Part shown: positions 31,206 through 37,222 of the stretch, one piece after another | Layout of the letters: each line of letters opens with the position of its first letter | Position numbering within the stretch: the first letter of the stretch is position 1 | From: Arsenicicoccus piscis | GTDB lineage: Bacteria > Actinomycetota > Actinomycetes > Actinomycetales > Dermatophilaceae | DNA: 64,000 nt | Direction: 5' to 3' | Assembly (NCBI RefSeq): GCF_022568835.1 | Contig: NZ_JAKZHV010000006.1 | Coordinates: 124,001-188,000 of the forward strand | Translations under genes and position numbers: made by a program | The notes under the pieces: model-generated | The model's database searches: none | Told to the model about the DNA's origin: nothing | Seen by the model: only the letters and a program-made list of their open reading frames with translations

Positions 31206-32079
31206 ATGACTGCCTCCGACGACGTCCGGCTCTGGGTCGACGGAGAGCTGGTCCCGGCCACGGCCGGGAGCGTCAGCGCGCTCGACCACGGCAGCACGGT
31301 CGGTGACGGGGCGTTCGAGGTGGCCAAGATCGTCGACGGAGCGCCGTTCGCGCTCTCGCGCCACCACGCCCGGCTCGCCCGCTCGCTGGCCGGCCTCGGG
31401 CTCCCCGCCCGATCTCGACGCCCTCGACGCGGGGATCGCTGCGGTCCTCAGCCCGCAGGCGGGGCCGACGATCGAGTTCGGCCGCTTGCGCTACTGGGTC
31501 ACCGCCGGGCTGGGGCCGCTGGGCTCGGACCGGTTGCGCCTGCGTCCGCCGCATCCGACGATCGTCGTCGCCGCGAGCCCGGTAGACCGTCCGCCCGAGT
31601 CAGGCGCCCTCGTCACCGTCCCGTGGACCCGCAACGAGCGGTCCGCGACGGTCGGCCTCAAGACCCTGTCCTACGCCGACAACGTCCTCGCGCTGCGCGA
31701 GGCCACCAGCCAGGGCGCCATCGAGGCGGTCTTCGCCAACACCCGCGGCGAGCTGTGCGAGTGCACCGGGTCCAACATCTTCGTCGTGCCGTCGTCGACC
31801 GACGGGGTGATCGTCACGCCGCCGGCGGACTCGGGGCTGCTGCTCGGCATCACCCGTGAGCTCACCATCACCTGGTGCCGCGAGGCCGGGATCGAGGTGC
31901 GCGAGGAGGCGCTGCCGCTGCACGGTCTACAGGAGGTGGACGAGGTGTTCATCACCTCGACGACCAAGGACGTGCTGCCGATCCACCGCGTCGACGACCG
32001 CGAGCTGGTGGTTGGTCCGGTGTCGCGCCGGGCGCGTGAGATCTTCACCGAGCGTGCTCGCCAGGACCTCGATCCATGA
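31206..32079 (+). pseudogene. Aminotransferase class IV, one frameshift
   Basis: The gene encodes a PLP enzyme of the aminodeoxychorismate lyase/branched-chain aminotransferase fold. Frame 1 from the ATG at 31206 has VDGELVPATAGSVSALDHGS and TVGDGAFEVAKIVDGAPFAL, then at 31401-31411 (CTCCCCGCCC) homology moves by one base to DLDALDAGIAAVLSPQ, VGLKTLSYADNVLALREA with the PLP lysine, GELCECTGSNIFVV and EVFITSTTKDVLPI. Removing one base in the C-rich run gives one continuous protein of about 290 residues. It may be pabC (4-amino-4-deoxychorismate lyase) or a D-amino-acid/branched-chain enzyme; I cannot decide. Sequencing error is likely. Confidence 0.78.
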
Positions 32080-32099
32080 CCATTCTGCTAAGCAGCATG

Positions 32100-32123
32100 G
32101 TTGACCGGGGGTGTGGCAGGGTA
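32100..32123 (+). promoter_or_regulatory. SigB/SigF-type promoter before csbD
   Basis: GTTG at 32100-32103, a 15-base spacer and GGGTA at 32119-32123 match the SigB/SigF consensus GTTT-N14-16-GGGTA. It lies 54 bases before the csbD start. An imperfect hairpin (32079-32101, arms of 11 bases) just upstream probably ends the aminotransferase transcript. Confidence 0.65.
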
Positions 32124-32176
32124 GGGAAGCCACACCGGGATGGTGATCCAGCCAGCCCACAACCTGAAGGAGAACC

Positions 32177-32350
32177 ATGGGACTCGACGACAAGATCAAG
32201 AACGCCGCCCAGGACCTGCAGGGCAAGGCCAAGGAGGCCACCGGCAAGGCGACCGACAACGAGCGCCTCGAGGCCGAGGGCCGCACGGACCAGGCCGGCG
32301 CCGACCTCAAGCAGGCCGGCGAGAAGGCCAAGGACGCGTTCAAGAACTGA
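32177..32350 (+). CDS. CsbD-family stress protein
   Basis: This is a short gene of 57 codons plus stop, with AAGGAG in front of the ATG. The protein MGLDDKIKNAAQDLQGKAKE continues with ATGKATDNERLEAEGRTDQ and ends EKAKDAFKN, the full CsbD-like pattern: small, hydrophilic, helical. CsbD proteins are abundant general-stress proteins of unknown mechanism, in Bacillus under SigB. The SigB-type promoter found here supports the same control. Confidence 0.9.
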   Translation: MGLDDKIKNAAQDLQGKAKEATGKATDNERLEAEGRTDQAGADLKQAGEKAKDAFKN

Positions 32351-32391
32351 GGCCGTCCGGCGTCCGGGCGGCCTGACCCGCAAGGAGCTCC

Positions 32392-32856
32392 GTGCATCGC
32401 CCGGACGCGCACCCTCGAGGTGAGGCTCGCACCCGTCGCGAGCGCTGGCACGCCCAGCGCACCCGCTGGCGCACCGACCCACGCACGTCCCTGCTCTACC
32501 GGGGCGTGGTGGTGGTGCTCGGCTTCGTCGTCGTGGTGATCGGGCTGATCCTCGTCCCCTTCCCCGGACCGGGTTGGCTCATCGTGTTCTGCGGTGTGGC
32601 GATCTGGTCCGAGGTGTTTCCGTGGGCCGAGCGGCTGCGCGACCGCGGCTTCTTGCTGCTGCGCCGCTGGGAGGCCTGGGTCCTGACGTTGCCCGCCTTC
32701 TGGCGCTTCCTCGGTGGGGCGATGACGGCCCTCGGCATCGCGACGGGACTCGCGCTCTACGTGTGGTGGTCCGGCGTCCCGAACTGGCTGCCCGACGTCA
32801 TGGAGCACCGGGTCGAGGAGTTCTTCCGCAGGCACCTGCCGGCCAGGCCGGCCTGA
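32392..32856 (+). CDS. PGPGW-motif membrane protein (TIGR02611 type)
   Basis: This 154-residue protein has a basic start, a first transmembrane helix (about residues 38-60, VVVVLGFVVVVIGLILVPFPGPGW in parts), a second short hydrophobic hairpin, and a third helix (LGGAMTALGIATGLALYVWW). The PFPGPGW motif after helix 1 identifies the TIGR02611/putative transmembrane protein PGPGW family, of unknown function. The GTG at 32392 follows AAGGAG. It is 41 bp after csbD and probably shares its SigB-type promoter. Confidence 0.82.
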   Translation: MHRPDAHPRGEARTRRERWHAQRTRWRTDPRTSLLYRGVVVVLGFVVVVIGLILVPFPGPGWLIVFCGVAIWSEVFPWAERLRDRGFLLLRRWEAWVLTLPAFWRFLGGAMTALGIATGLALYVWWSGVPNWLPDVMEHRVEEFFRRHLPARPA

Positions 32857-32936
32857 ACTCGTCGGGCGGCGTGGCCGATTGGCATCCGGCGCCCCCGGGC
32901 CGGTACCCTTGCGGAGTTGCGCTCACCCGCAACGCT

Positions 32937-33010
32937 GGACGTGTAGCTCAGTTGGTTAGAGCGTTCGCTTCACACGCGAGAGGCCAGGGGTTCGAGTCCC
33001 TTCACGTCCA
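32937..33010 (+). tRNA. tRNA-Val(CAC)
   Basis: The 74-nt gene has acceptor arms GGACGTG/CACGTCC, D-arm AGCTCAGTTGGTTAGAGC, anticodon loop TTCACAC (anticodon CAC) and T-arm GGGGTTCGAGTCCC with one imperfect pair. CCA is encoded at 33011-33013. Confidence 0.94.
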
Positions 33011-33016
33011 CCAGCC

Positions 33017-33060
33017 AAGAGGCCCGAGATTCTGCGGAAAGGCAGAGTCTCGGGCTTCTT
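33017..33060 (+). terminator. Terminator after tRNA-Val(CAC)
   Basis: Arms at 33017-33029 and 33048-33060 pair over 13 bases with one G-U, and TCTGC/GCAGA pair inside. The arm ends in TTCTT. It separates the tRNA from the Abi locus. Confidence 0.75.
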
Positions 33061-33102
33061 CTATGTGGCCGTGCACCTGCCACAGGCGGGGATCGGGACA
33101 AG

Positions 33103-33247
33103 GTCTTGTGAGTTTGAGTCGATGGCTAGGCTGACGGTGGCGAGCCACGCTATGCGCCCGAAGGGACGTCAGCCTAGCCATCGAGCAAGACGAAACCCCG
33201 GCGATGTGGCTGGGCCAGGGATCGTTCCGGGGTCTTCGAGACGAAAC
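33103..33247 (+). ncRNA. Candidate structured RNA upstream of Abi gene
   Basis: A nested fold is visible. An 18-bp perfect stem is formed by 33119-33136 and 33167-33184. Outside it GTCTTG (33103-33108) pairs with CAAGAC (33186-33191), leaving a 10-nt bulge on the 5' side. Inside it are GTGG/CCAC (33137-33148) and CCC/GGG (33157-33165 area). Downstream, ACCCCGG (33195-33201) pairs with CCGGGGT (33227-33233), followed by GTCT-TCG-AGAC at 33232-33242. The 9-mer AGACGAAAC occurs twice, at 33188-33196 and 33239-33247. Rfam describes an abiF RNA motif next to abiF genes, and AbiF systems work with such an RNA; whether this one is homologous is untested. It could also be a leader or a terminator pair. 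Confidence 0.6.
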
Positions 33248-33268
33248 TATACCGAGGGAGTCGGGGTA

Positions 33269-33958
33269 TTGCCAGACCAACCTGACGAAGCGGTCGACTA
33301 TGAGCGCCTGGAGTGGCTCCTGACTGAGGAGCGGCTCGGTTCCTACTTCCGGGCCGCCAACGGGGAACGGGAGCCAGCATTTGCTCTCTACGAGTGGAAC
33401 ATCGAGGCCTCGGCCGCGGCCGTTTCCCTGTCCGCGATGGTTGAGGTCGTCCTCCGGAACGCTCTGGACCGGGAGATGGCCGTCCTCGGCGAGGCGAAGG
33501 GGTGGTCCGACTGGCTGGATGACGCTCCCTTGGACCATCGCGCTCGCAAGGACGTCAGGCAGGCCCGGGAGCGAGCCAGCCGAGGTCGACGAAGCGCCAC
33601 GCGCGGTCACGTCGTTGCCGAGCTGAACCTCGGCTTCTGGCGATTCCTCATGAGCAAGCGATACCTGACCAGTCTGTGGATCCCCGCCCTCGTCAAAGCA
33701 TTCCCCGGCGCTGAGGGGGATGCTCGCACCACGCAGCGTCTGCTGGAGGGGCACGTCGAGCAGATCAACTTCCTCAGGAACCGAGCTGCGCATCATGAAC
33801 CCATCCACCGACGGGATCTGCTGTCCGACCTCGACCGTGCCATGTACGTCGCGGGGTGCATCTACCCTGTGGCCGGCCGGTGGATCCGGAGCAGGGAGAC
33901 GTTGAGCAGCACCGTGGCGCAGCGACCCGAGACGCAGTCCCGAACAGAGGGCGCGTAG
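33269..33958 (+). CDS. Abi_2-family HEPN protein (AbiD/AbiF-like)
   Basis: The protein belongs to the abortive infection Abi_2 (AbiD/AbiF) family of HEPN-fold RNases used in phage defence and RNA toxin-antitoxin pairs. From the TTG at 33269, preceded by GAGGGAG, it is 229 residues. Signatures are FALYEWNIEASAAAVSLSAM and VEVVLRNALDREM, LNLGFWRFLMSKRYL, and LRNRAAHHEPI, where Arg170 and His175/His176 give the catalytic RxxxxH. A frame open to 33065 would add residues over the structured RNA and is not family-like. It stands alone between tRNA-Val and a MOSC gene. Base use is less GC-rich than in housekeeping neighbours, so recent acquisition is plausible. Confidence 0.85.
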   Translation: MPDQPDEAVDYERLEWLLTEERLGSYFRAANGEREPAFALYEWNIEASAAAVSLSAMVEVVLRNALDREMAVLGEAKGWSDWLDDAPLDHRARKDVRQARERASRGRRSATRGHVVAELNLGFWRFLMSKRYLTSLWIPALVKAFPGAEGDARTTQRLLEGHVEQINFLRNRAAHHEPIHRRDLLSDLDRAMYVAGCIYPVAGRWIRSRETLSSTVAQRPETQSRTEGA

Positions 33959-34070
33959 GGGTGCTAGCCCGGTATTGCGGGGTTTCGTCGGTGCTGGGTG
34001 GCCCGTGGAACTCGGCGACGAGGGAGTCCGTGAGGCGCGCGCCACGTCGAGTTTGCCGCCGAGGTGAGGC

Positions 34071-34448
34071 GTGCGCGACGCTGGTGCCATGGTCCCTCCT
34101 CAGGTGCTTCGGTACCGCCTCGAGCGCATCCAGGTCTTCCCCGTCAAGGACGCTCCTGGACGCCGGCTCAACCAGGGCACGGTCACGGCGTGCGGCGTCA
34201 TCGGCGACCGCCCCAAGAAGCGCGCGCTGCTGGTCACGAGCAGCGAAGACATGATGAATGACGAGCCCCGCAGCAACCTGGTGGTCGACGTGCCGAGCGA
34301 GACCCTCCGTCGCGCCACGGGCCACGAGATGCACATCGGTGACGTCGTCGTCCGCCTCGGACGCCAGCCGAGCGAGTGCCCCGGGCTCTACGCCGAGGTC
34401 GTCCGCACAGGGGACGTCCTCGTGGGCGACGTCGTCGTCATCGACTAG
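34071..34448 (+). CDS. Small MOSC-domain-like protein
   Basis: This 125-residue protein contains IQVFPVKDAPGRRLNQGTVT, CGVIGDRPKKRALLVTSSED, NLVVDVPSETLRR and RLGRQPSECPGLYAEVVRTG. The order (PVKG-like start, GDR, R-N-V, then the conserved CPG-Y) corresponds to a short version of the MOSC fold found in molybdenum-cofactor sulfurases and YiiM-like proteins. The cysteine in SECPGLY is at the position that binds sulfur or cofactor in relatives. I use the GTG at 34071 behind GAGGTGAGG; an ATG at 34089 is possible. The stretch 33959-34070 has nothing that I recognise. Confidence 0.62.
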   Translation: MRDAGAMVPPQVLRYRLERIQVFPVKDAPGRRLNQGTVTACGVIGDRPKKRALLVTSSEDMMNDEPRSNLVVDVPSETLRRATGHEMHIGDVVVRLGRQPSECPGLYAEVVRTGDVLVGDVVVID

Positions 34449-34523
34449 CGCGGCCGCACTTGTGGCGGCGTAGATTTGATCCGTCCGGTTGTCGTGCGGG
34501 TCTCAGGGGCAGGGTGAGGCGCC

Positions 34524-35048
34524 ATGAAGCTCAGCGTTGCGGGTGTGATCGTGAGCGCCTTTTTTACTGGCCGCCTGCTCCGGCGACGGTACGTCCCCGC
34601 AGGGCGCCGAAGGCGGGTCCGACCACAGCGTCACCACGGTCTACTCCACTCTTTCCGAGGCCTCGCGCGACTCCTCGCTCATCGTCCGGGGGACGGTCAC
34701 GGGTCCACCGCAGATGGTGCGCGCGGACGAGGACGGCGCTACGGGTGCGACGGTGCCGCTCTACGACGTCAGGGTTGAGAAGGTCCGCAAAGGAGCGGTC
34801 CAGACCGAGACGGTGAAGGTCCGGACCCTGGGCACGGATCCAGGGGCCGACTATCCCGTCCTCCAGCAGGGGCACACCTACGTCCTGTACCTCAGCCCCT
34901 TCATGTGGCACCCAGGCACGTCCACGGGCGAGTTCGTCATCACCGGCCAGCAGGCTCTGCCTATCAGCTCCACGGTGGGGACGCTCGACGCACCGGCTCC
35001 ATGGGGGAGCTGCAGGCCGCGGTGTCTGCAGCCGCAGCTGAGGGCTAG
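34524..35048 (+). pseudogene. Lipoprotein gene with two compensating frameshifts
   Basis: The ATG at 34524 starts MKLSVAGVIVSAF. After a run of six T (34560-34565) the sensible reading moves by one base and gives LLAACSGDGTSPQGAEGGSD, a perfect lipobox with its cysteine, then a small beta-rich domain (TVTGPPQMVRADEDGATGAT, YDVRVEKVRKGAVQTETVKV, YVLYLSPFMWHPG). At five G (35003-35007) the reading returns to the first frame and ends GELQAAVSAAAEG at a TAG (35046-35048). One T too many and one G too few explain both changes. Assembly error in homopolymers is likely; slippage-based switching is possible. The product would be a lipid-anchored exported protein of unknown role. Confidence 0.65.
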
Positions 35049-35130
35049 CCGGCGCGTCGGAAAGCTCGCTGCGGGCGCTCGCCCGCGTAATGCTGTCGGT
35101 TCCCGTGCGCGGGGGCGGATAGGCTGGTGA

Positions 35131-35151
35131 GTGGCTCGAAGAACGAGCCAC
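35131..35151 (+). promoter_or_regulatory. Hairpin in the thrS leader
   Basis: GTGGCTCG and CGAGCCAC form an 8-bp stem with an AAGAA loop, 25 bases before the GTG start. A -10-like TAGGCT at 35119-35124 would start the mRNA at the foot of the hairpin. No T-box features are present. Confidence 0.45.
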
Positions 35152-35176
35152 CTACCTGCAACCAAGGAGTCCCACC

Positions 35177-37222
35177 GTGCCAGCCGAGATTACCGTGTCC
35201 ATCGCCGGAAGCGAGCGATCGGTCGCGGCGGGCACTACCGCGGCCGACCTGTTCGGCGGCGACAAGCGCGTCGTCGTAGCCCGGGTGGACGGGGAGCTGA
35301 AGGACCTCACCTACGTGCTCGAGGACGGTCAGTCCGTAGAGCCGGTGGACATCGCCAGCGAGGACGGCCTCAACGTCCTGCGCCACTCCGCGGCCCACGT
35401 CGCCGCCCAGGCGGTGCAGCAGGTCAACCCGAGCGCCAAGCTGGGCATCGGGCCGCCCATCAAGGACGGGTTCTACTACGACTTCCAGGTCGACCAGCCG
35501 TTCACGCCCGAGGACCTGAAGCAGCTCGAAAAGGTGATGCAGCGCATCATCAACGAGGGTCAGACCTTCGAGCGGCGGGTCGTCAGCGACGAGGCCGCGA
35601 TGGTCGAGCTCGCCGACGAGCCGTTCAAGCTCGAGCTGATCGGGCTCAAGGGCGGCATGTCGCACGACGACGAGGAGGCCGGGGCCGGCGTCGAGGTCGG
35701 GGCCGGCGAGCTCACGATCTACGACAACGTCCGGCGCGACGGGTCGCGCGCCTGGGGTGACCTGTGCCGCGGGCCGCACCTGCCCAGCACCAAGCTGATC
35801 GGCAACGCCTTCTCGCTGATGCGCTCCTCTGCCGCCTACTGGCGTGGCGACCAGCGCAACCAGCAGCTGCAGCGCCTCTACGGCACGGCGTGGCCGTCCA
35901 AGGAGGAGATGCGGGCCTACCTCGACCGCCTGGCCGAGGCCGAGAAGCGCGACCACCGCAAGCTCGGGTCCGAGCTCGACCTCTACTCCTTCCCCGACGA
36001 GATCGGCTCCGGCCTGCCGGTGTTCCACCCCAAGGGCGGGATCATCAAGCGCGAGATGGAGGACTACGTCCGCCGTCGGCACATCGAGGAGGGCTTCCAG
36101 TACGTCGGGACGCCGCACATCGCCAAGGAGAACCTCTTCCACACCTCGGGGCACCTGCCCTACTACGCGGACACGATGTTCCCGCCGCTGCACGTCGACG
36201 AGGAGCGCAACGCCGAGGGTGAGGTCACCAAGCCGGGGCAGGACTACTACCTCAAGGCGATGAACTGCCCGATGCACAACCTGATCTACCGCTCGCGCGG
36301 TCGGTCCTACCGCGAGCTGCCGCTGCGGCTCTTCGAGTTCGGGCACGTCTACCGCTACGAGAAGTCCGGCGTCATCCACGGCCTCACGCGGGTGCGCGGC
36401 TTCGCCCAGGACGACTCGCACTCCTACGTCACCGAGGAGCAGGCGCCTGCCGAGATCAAGCACCTGCTCGACTTCATCCTCGGACTGCTGCGCGACTTCG
36501 GCCTGGACGACTTCTACCTCGAGCTGTCCACGCGCGAGACCGAGGGCGCCAAGGCGGGCAAGTTCATCGGCTCCGACGAGCAGTGGGAGACGGCGACGCG
36601 CGTCCTCGAGCAGGTGTGCCTGGAGTCCGGGCTCGAGCTCGTGCCCGACCCAGGCGGCGCCGCCTACTACGGCCCCAAGGTGTCGGTGCAGGCGCGTGAC
36701 GCGATCGGCCGCACCTGGCAGATGTCGACGATCCAGTACGACTTCAACCAGCCGGCCGGCTTCGGCCTGGAGTACCAGGCGGCGGACGGCACGCGCAAGC
36801 AGCCGGTGATGATCCACTCGGCCAAGTTCGGGTCGATCGAGCGGTTCATGGGCGTGCTCGTCGAGCACTACGCCGGTGCGTTCCCGGTGTGGCTCTCGCC
36901 GGTTCAGGTGCTCGCCATCCCGGTCGCCGACGAGTACGCCGACTACCTGAAGGAGATCGCAGACCGCATGCGGCGCAAGGGGATTCGGGCCGAGGTCGAC
37001 TACTCCGACGACCGTTTCCCCAAGAAGATCCGCACCGCCTCGAAGTCGAAGGTGCCCTTCGTGCTGATCGCCGGCGAGGAGGACAAGGCCGCGGGCGCGG
37101 TGTCCTTCCGCTACCGCGACGGCTCGCAGCGCAACGGCGTCCCGGTCGACCAGGCCATCGACGACATCGTGGCCGCGATCGAGTCTAAGGCTCAGGTCAC
37201 CACCGCACCCACCGCTCCGTAG
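35177..37222 (+). CDS. thrS: Threonyl-tRNA synthetase
   Basis: This essential enzyme charges tRNA-Thr. The 681-residue protein has the full domain set: TGS domain (1-65), the editing domain with [13 protein letters not shown] and CRGPHLPST, the class II core with [24 protein letters not shown] including the zinc ligand Cys364, motif 2 [15 protein letters not shown] with VRGFAQDD, motif 3 [14 protein letters not shown], and a C-terminal anticodon-binding domain. The GTG at 35177 follows AAGGAG. It converges on the AlkD-like gene with only 8 bp between stops. Confidence 0.97.

Follow-up and report, generated by a model that had tools for sequence, protein, structure and literature searches.

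Does the abi gene of Arsenicicoccus piscis have an RNA partner, and, if so, on which strand is that RNA encoded? The 64,000-nt stretch analysed here (contig NZ_JAKZHV010000006.1, positions 124,001 to 188,000; hereafter the window) holds a gene for an AbiF-like HEPN protein preceded by a region of stems and repeats, which a first-pass annotation had read as the structured RNA of an AbiF-type defence system. Our analyses suggest that a conserved RNA of approximately 50 nt, predicted on the strand opposite to the gene, probably acts as the RNA antitoxin of the AbiF-like toxin.

The predicted non-coding RNA (ncRNA) lies at 33186..33239 on the minus strand, with its ends estimated (match to covariance model R2 at 33238-33188, 67.5 bits), and has three predicted stems, namely P1 (ACCCCGG/CCGGGGU), P2 (CGAU/AUCG), and P3 (UGGC/GCCA). 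The stems and repeats listed in the first-pass annotation were all found in the sequence. The 18-bp perfect stem is exact (arms at 33119-33136 and 33167-33184, 30-nt loop), the outer helix GTCTTG/CAAGAC was recovered in the computed fold, and the duplicated AGACGAAAC stands at 33188 and 33239. What the upstream regions of relatives have in common is a short gene-adjacent hairpin, not the long stem. A scan by simple rules detected this hairpin at 39 of 65 loci and not at the other 26; three were dropped by eye (L035, L037, and L066) and 36 were kept. L037 afterwards scored 29.1 bits with the RNA model, and L025, L027, L062, and L065 had no hairpin by the simple rule yet later matched R2. The minus-strand consensus reads gaaga-CCCCGG-..-C(C/U)CU-variable hairpin-..-CCGGGG-T-rich. 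Covariance models were built on 15 rows (R1) and on 40 rows (R2), and R2 matched 40 of the 68 sources scored (cut-off E 1e-4), among which L065 and L070 are one and the same place. In the 40-row alignment, 95.4% of the cells pair, compared with at most 48.4% for slid structures. Cells changed on both sides numbered 75 versus 26.9 +/- 3.4 in shuffles, none of 500 shuffles being as high, and the RNA has near-invariant unpaired residues. No family in Rfam 15, the release searched, covers this conserved RNA. Among homologues, it is the short hairpin that covaries; the 18-bp stem is confined to the window and four close relatives. The evidence supports the proposal that a HEPN gene is paired with an RNA that is conserved and covaries, but this RNA does not look like a leader of the gene, and the long stem is not the conserved RNA.

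The abi gene (33269..33958, plus strand) most likely starts at the TTG at 33269, which is favoured by homology and by a Shine-Dalgarno sequence, GAGGGAG (33254..33260, plus strand); the start given in the first-pass annotation was too far upstream. Its predicted product of 229 amino acids (aa) carries RNRAAHH, and the HEPN RxxxxH motif within it (R170..H175) is invariant in all 29 aligned sequences, the window protein included. The match to Pfam Abi_2 falls short of the gathering score (17.0 of 25.6 bits), and we therefore call the protein AbiF-like. At E 0.01, the Abi_2 profile matches 10 of the 29 aligned sequences, with a best value of 8.4e-9. The PADLOC profile PD-T4-5 is matched at E 3.6e-12 (residues 7-187 versus 3-212 of the 309 profile positions), and the predicted fold of the protein resembles that of AbiF. 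In a rival reading, the RNA is mainly a type I-like antisense repressor of abi mRNA that does not bind the protein. The divergent geometry fits such a repressor, and the entire RNA would find its complement in any abi mRNA begun further upstream. Nevertheless, plain antisense pairing needs neither covariation nor near-invariant unpaired residues, and the AbiF structure that the predicted fold resembles was solved with ncRNA bound; we consider a purely antisense role unlikely.

Searching 394 genomes of the class with the RNA model gave matches in 40 genomes at 60 places. An Abi_2 profile match was present at 23 of the 30 RNA loci fetched (partial in L125, L127, and L131), including 8 of 13 in genomes outside model training. 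In all 23, the gene lies on the strand opposite to the RNA, and the distance from the RNA 5' end to the start of the Abi_2 match is 49-79 nt in 21 and 31 and 105 nt in the others. The same opposite orientation was found in 39 of the 40 sources matched by R2. At the 7 of 30 RNA loci with no Abi_2 profile match, tblastn detected weak abi traces at the expected place in three (L112, E 0.009; L130, 8e-4; L133, 0.004). A remnant of abi seen by eye beside the RNA of L111 was withdrawn, as tblastn finds none there. An RNA that outlives its gene may fit antitoxin behaviour. The protein-led search found a relative in 38 of 296 class genomes and 18 of 186 family genomes. A distant relative occurs on mycobacterial contigs that look plasmid-like (L008-L015; 7 of the 8 are 19-28 kb); these loci have no hairpin and look co-directional from the plus-strand promoter score and, by eye, an upstream terminator.

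The first-pass annotation had pointed to the abiF RNA family, but the Rfam abiF covariance model (RF03085, gathering score 37 bits) gave no match at the window. As a positive control, the model did score abiF RNAs above the threshold, with 41-46 bits, at other places in this genome (G000) and in G004, G006, and G342. For example, L077 (G000:C5:122555-122590) is a true Rfam abiF RNA of 41.3 bits that is co-directional with an AbiF-like frame, as are all three such RNAs fetched (L077-L079); by eye, the ATG adjoining the RNA in L077 is out of the AbiF-like frame. The Rfam abiF consensus has GC-CUCU...AU-GC within P1, and GCCUCU occurs on the minus strand in 14 of the 40 copies of our RNA, a sequence likeness that offers a lead, not membership. 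The window system resembles AbiF and its ncRNA (RF03085; RCd22-AbiFCd; PbAbiF-AbiFr, PDB 8VZ6) in its predicted AbiF-like HEPN fold and in a short hairpin RNA by the gene. It differs in that its RNA is predicted on the opposite strand, rather than co-directional as in abiF-type systems, and driven by a separate promoter that covers the start of the toxin gene, and in having a variable extra hairpin (P3), no RF03085 match, and no match in a PDB sequence search up to E 1.

On which strand, then, would the RNA be transcribed? Promoter position and the T-rich tail place it opposite to abi, which is not what a leader of the gene would show. A sigma-70-like promoter, CTGGCA-18-TATAGT, was found by promoter scan at 33246..33275 on the minus strand, directed away from abi. 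It is the sole site found in the scan of 33010-33330, where 0.1 were expected. It has a -35 box that overlaps the start codon of abi, and no equally good promoter faces the gene. TANNNT occurs on the minus strand 10-13 nt before P1 in 35 of 36 loci, compared with 6.4% in shuffled intervals (9-13 nt), and it stands at one exact position in 27 of 36. In the corresponding plus-strand interval it occurs in 7 of 36, which equals the shuffled rate, and no single plus-strand position is shared by more than 3 of 36. Because the distance from RNA to gene varies while that from box to hairpin is fixed, the promoter box belongs with the RNA. A -35 box matching at 4 or more of 6 positions accompanied it in 22 of 35, versus 17% in shuffles. 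Across 37 actinobacterial loci, the promoter score was 7.76 for the minus strand versus 5.89 for the plus strand (shuffled 6.28, p = 1.9e-6), and the T-rich tail lies on the minus strand (6.56 versus 3.72 of 14, p = 2.2e-7).

This strand evidence has to be set against the possibility that the hairpins stand at the head of the abi mRNA, read in the same direction as the gene, and serve as an attenuator-antitoxin of the RCd22 kind. In C. difficile, RCd22 lies upstream of abiF, is co-directional and co-transcribed with it, and is reported to neutralise AbiF (PMC12373285). Besides this precedent and the co-directional abiF RNAs of L077-L079, a leader would be consistent with the stable plus-strand fold (33095-33275, better than 200 of 200 shuffles, z -3.84; the minus strand, over a different stretch, 33110-33239, gave z -6.62) and with L062, which scores on the gene's strand. 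However, a simple rule detected a gene-facing -35/-10 pair in 1 of 36 loci, and both the -10 box at a fixed hairpin distance and the T-rich tail are on the minus strand, which makes a leader decidedly improbable. The left arm of the 18-bp repeat contains TAGGCT, which was rejected as a plus-strand -10 box for the RNA or gene; it has no matching -35 box and is confined to the repeat-bearing loci and a right-arm remnant in L002. Least probable, with only a slim chance, is a hairpin that does no more than terminate transcription in both directions, or insulate, next to a toxin gene. The T-rich tail, the G+C-rich stem, and a neighbouring inverted repeat that overlaps the stop codon of an integrase-like open reading frame (ORF) in L004 and L005 would suit such an element, but a promoter-like box at a fixed distance, conserved unpaired residues, and co-occurrence with one gene family are all unexpected in a terminator.

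The arrangement is not specific to actinobacteria, as the RNA is also matched at proteobacterial plasmid loci. Seventeen such loci were analysed: 5 came from 54 records, and 12 from a listing that showed 60 rows out of 470 records. R2 matched the minus strand in seven, six at 55.8 (L151), 44.2 (L143), 41.1 (L137), 39.0 (L135), 32.1 (L136), and 25.9 bits (L142), and one weakly (L134, 18.0 bits, E 0.004). The promoter score over the 17 loci was 8.41 for the minus strand versus 6.82 for the plus strand (shuffled 7.07, p = 0.0035), and PD-T4-5 was matched by all eight plasmid proteins tested, including those of L136 and L143. Two loci with no R2 match, L140 (E. coli pEC1066) and L144 (Zymomonas; TTGACA-17-TATAAT), have a strong minus-strand promoter and, by eye, a minus-strand terminator, and may carry a second RNA type. 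A tree was computed for 77 proteins and rooted at the midpoint. One of its branches (65 rows, 95/88) takes in every one of the 47 rows labelled divergent, 42 on the evidence of R2 and 5 on that of the promoter, and none of the 10 rows labelled co-directional. This topology fits, but does not prove, a single strand switch in AbiF evolution. Another conserved upstream element, AAGCAGTCGAA..GGCCCCACTGGC-like with a CACCAGGT hairpin, was seen by eye in L141, L149, and L050-L054; it adjoins a separate Abi branch that includes viral contigs.

Several observations weigh against an opposite-strand antitoxin. Most of the 40 sources matched by R2 had trained it, and the strand bias of R2 is partly built in because the minus strand was chosen ahead of model building. 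One of the 40, L062, has the RNA on the gene's own strand, and in 4 of the 7 RNA loci lacking a profile match (L111, L114, L118, and L123) tblastn found no abi trace beside the RNA. RF03085 matches none of the conserved RNAs examined, and the window's copy has AUCCCUG in place of the GC-CUCU core, as in 11 of the 40 copies (10 others). In the window, the -35 box has only 4 of 6 matches and the T-rich terminator scan passed none. G-U and A-C cells number 22 and 13, which is not decisive, and the wobble count was dropped as a strand test. Minus and plus promoter scores are 6.74 and 6.96 at 27 other loci, most of them with no RNA match (p = 0.46). Ten of the 17 proteobacterial plasmid loci gave no R2 minus-strand match, and 18 rows of the 65-row branch have no assigned arrangement.

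Comparison with other systems helps to place this candidate pair. AbiF and AbiFr are described as a type III pair and an ancestor of Cas13 (PMC12737573), and AbiF-type HEPN toxins with RNA partners are proposed Cas13 ancestors (PMC12737573, PMC12165695). The window protein has a single HEPN motif in its 229 aa instead of the two of CRISPR-Cas13, and no CRISPR array was noticed on reading 31500-36000, where no dedicated repeat search was made. PD-T4-5, reported as an E. coli plasmid-borne gene that is a distant AbiF/D relative with toxin-antitoxin-like Abi defence (PMC9519451), is linked to the window by its profile; the accessible part of that report mentions no RNA partner, whereas here a candidate RNA lies beside relatives. 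ToxIN-type type III systems likewise combine an RNase toxin with an RNA antitoxin, which is predicted here, but their RNA repeats precede the toxin gene and their toxins belong to another family (PMC12373285). Unlike them, the window system has a HEPN protein and a divergent RNA, mostly in one copy. The window holds one strong copy rather than tandem repeats; L025 has two RNA copies and L029 has two beside one of its genes. L025 and L027 also contain nearly identical inverted repeats with a shared arm, CCATGATCATGAACACTA, near the RNA genes, lying approximately 390 nt (L025) and 316 nt (L027) upstream of the gene match. As in type I systems, the RNA is encoded against the toxin's direction. 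Type I toxins are mostly small peptides; here, a structured covarying RNA is accompanied by a predicted enzyme. The literature considered also includes PMC3710099. Among the matches listed, none mentions, in its title or in the first lines of its abstract, an RNA encoded divergently from a gene of this family; an earlier description is possible.

The long stem itself, taken as part of a structured RNA in the first-pass annotation, is an inverted repeat (33119..33136 and 33167..33184) beyond the RNA 3' end. Repeats of 18-24 nt were found, among the loci searched, only in the window, L003, L004, L005, and L058, and are absent beside good RNAs in L006, L021, L022, L023, and L036. Rfam microRNA matches over the stem (26 of 79 bits) were far below threshold and taken as chance. 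The arms are fully complementary in all five loci, even though each of the other four departs from the window at 7 of 18 pairs. In L005 (2834-2905) the loop is inverted relative to the four others. The left arm forms the 3' end of a tyrosine integrase-like ORF, stop codon included, in L004 and L005; it is likewise at such an ORF end in L058 by eye, and is absent from L006 and L002. Perfect, wobble-free pairing and the flipped loop hint at an event in the DNA itself, for instance template switching, or at a transcription barrier between convergent genes. The idea that the right arm is a variable guide 5' of the conserved hairpin was rejected, because the repeat occurs only in the window and four other loci, the L005 loop is inverted, and the RNA appears to read the other way.

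The module lies downstream of tRNA-Val(CAC) (32937..33013, plus strand) and a strong hairpin directly after it (33017..33058, plus strand), likely the tRNA terminator, and its far flank is an ORF matching MOSC below threshold. In three congeners with no abi gene (G001-G003), the tRNA and the ORF are separated by 99, 118, and 172 nt, and by eye this ORF looks the same as the MOSC-like one; the module is therefore an insertion. Downstream of abi, at 33979 on the plus strand, GGGGTTTCGTC repeats the GACGAAACCCC of position 33189 in inverted form; it may be left over from a second RNA copy or be an insertion scar.

In the favoured reading, the AbiF-like HEPN protein would be an RNase toxin that the RNA binds and silences until phage infection upsets the balance. 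No promoter that would belong to abi is recognisable in its vicinity, so that the gene probably depends on read-through and is expressed weakly. Its expression would be lowered further by polymerase occupying the promoter of the RNA and by base-pairing between the RNA and any read-through abi mRNA, and the 18-bp inverted repeat is probably a local transcription barrier towards the upstream gene. A wider proposal is tentative, and we would sooner bet against it than for it: an AbiF-like branch spanning Actinomycetota and Pseudomonadota, PD-T4-5-like genes included, might be under the control of an unrecognised family of divergent RNA antitoxins that arose by one strand flip and acts doubly, by binding the toxin and by pairing with or blocking its mRNA from a promoter at the start codon. 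If the opposite-strand antitoxin is real, it would supply the missing antitoxin of a widespread group of likely anti-phage genes. The prediction would then be that a small opposite-strand RNA, missing from the annotation, often accompanies PD-T4-5-like genes and has to be included or deleted for assays to be meaningful. Furthermore, with its own promoter and a divergent direction, the RNA would no longer depend on the transcript of the toxin, and a guide-RNA gene would require the same independence.
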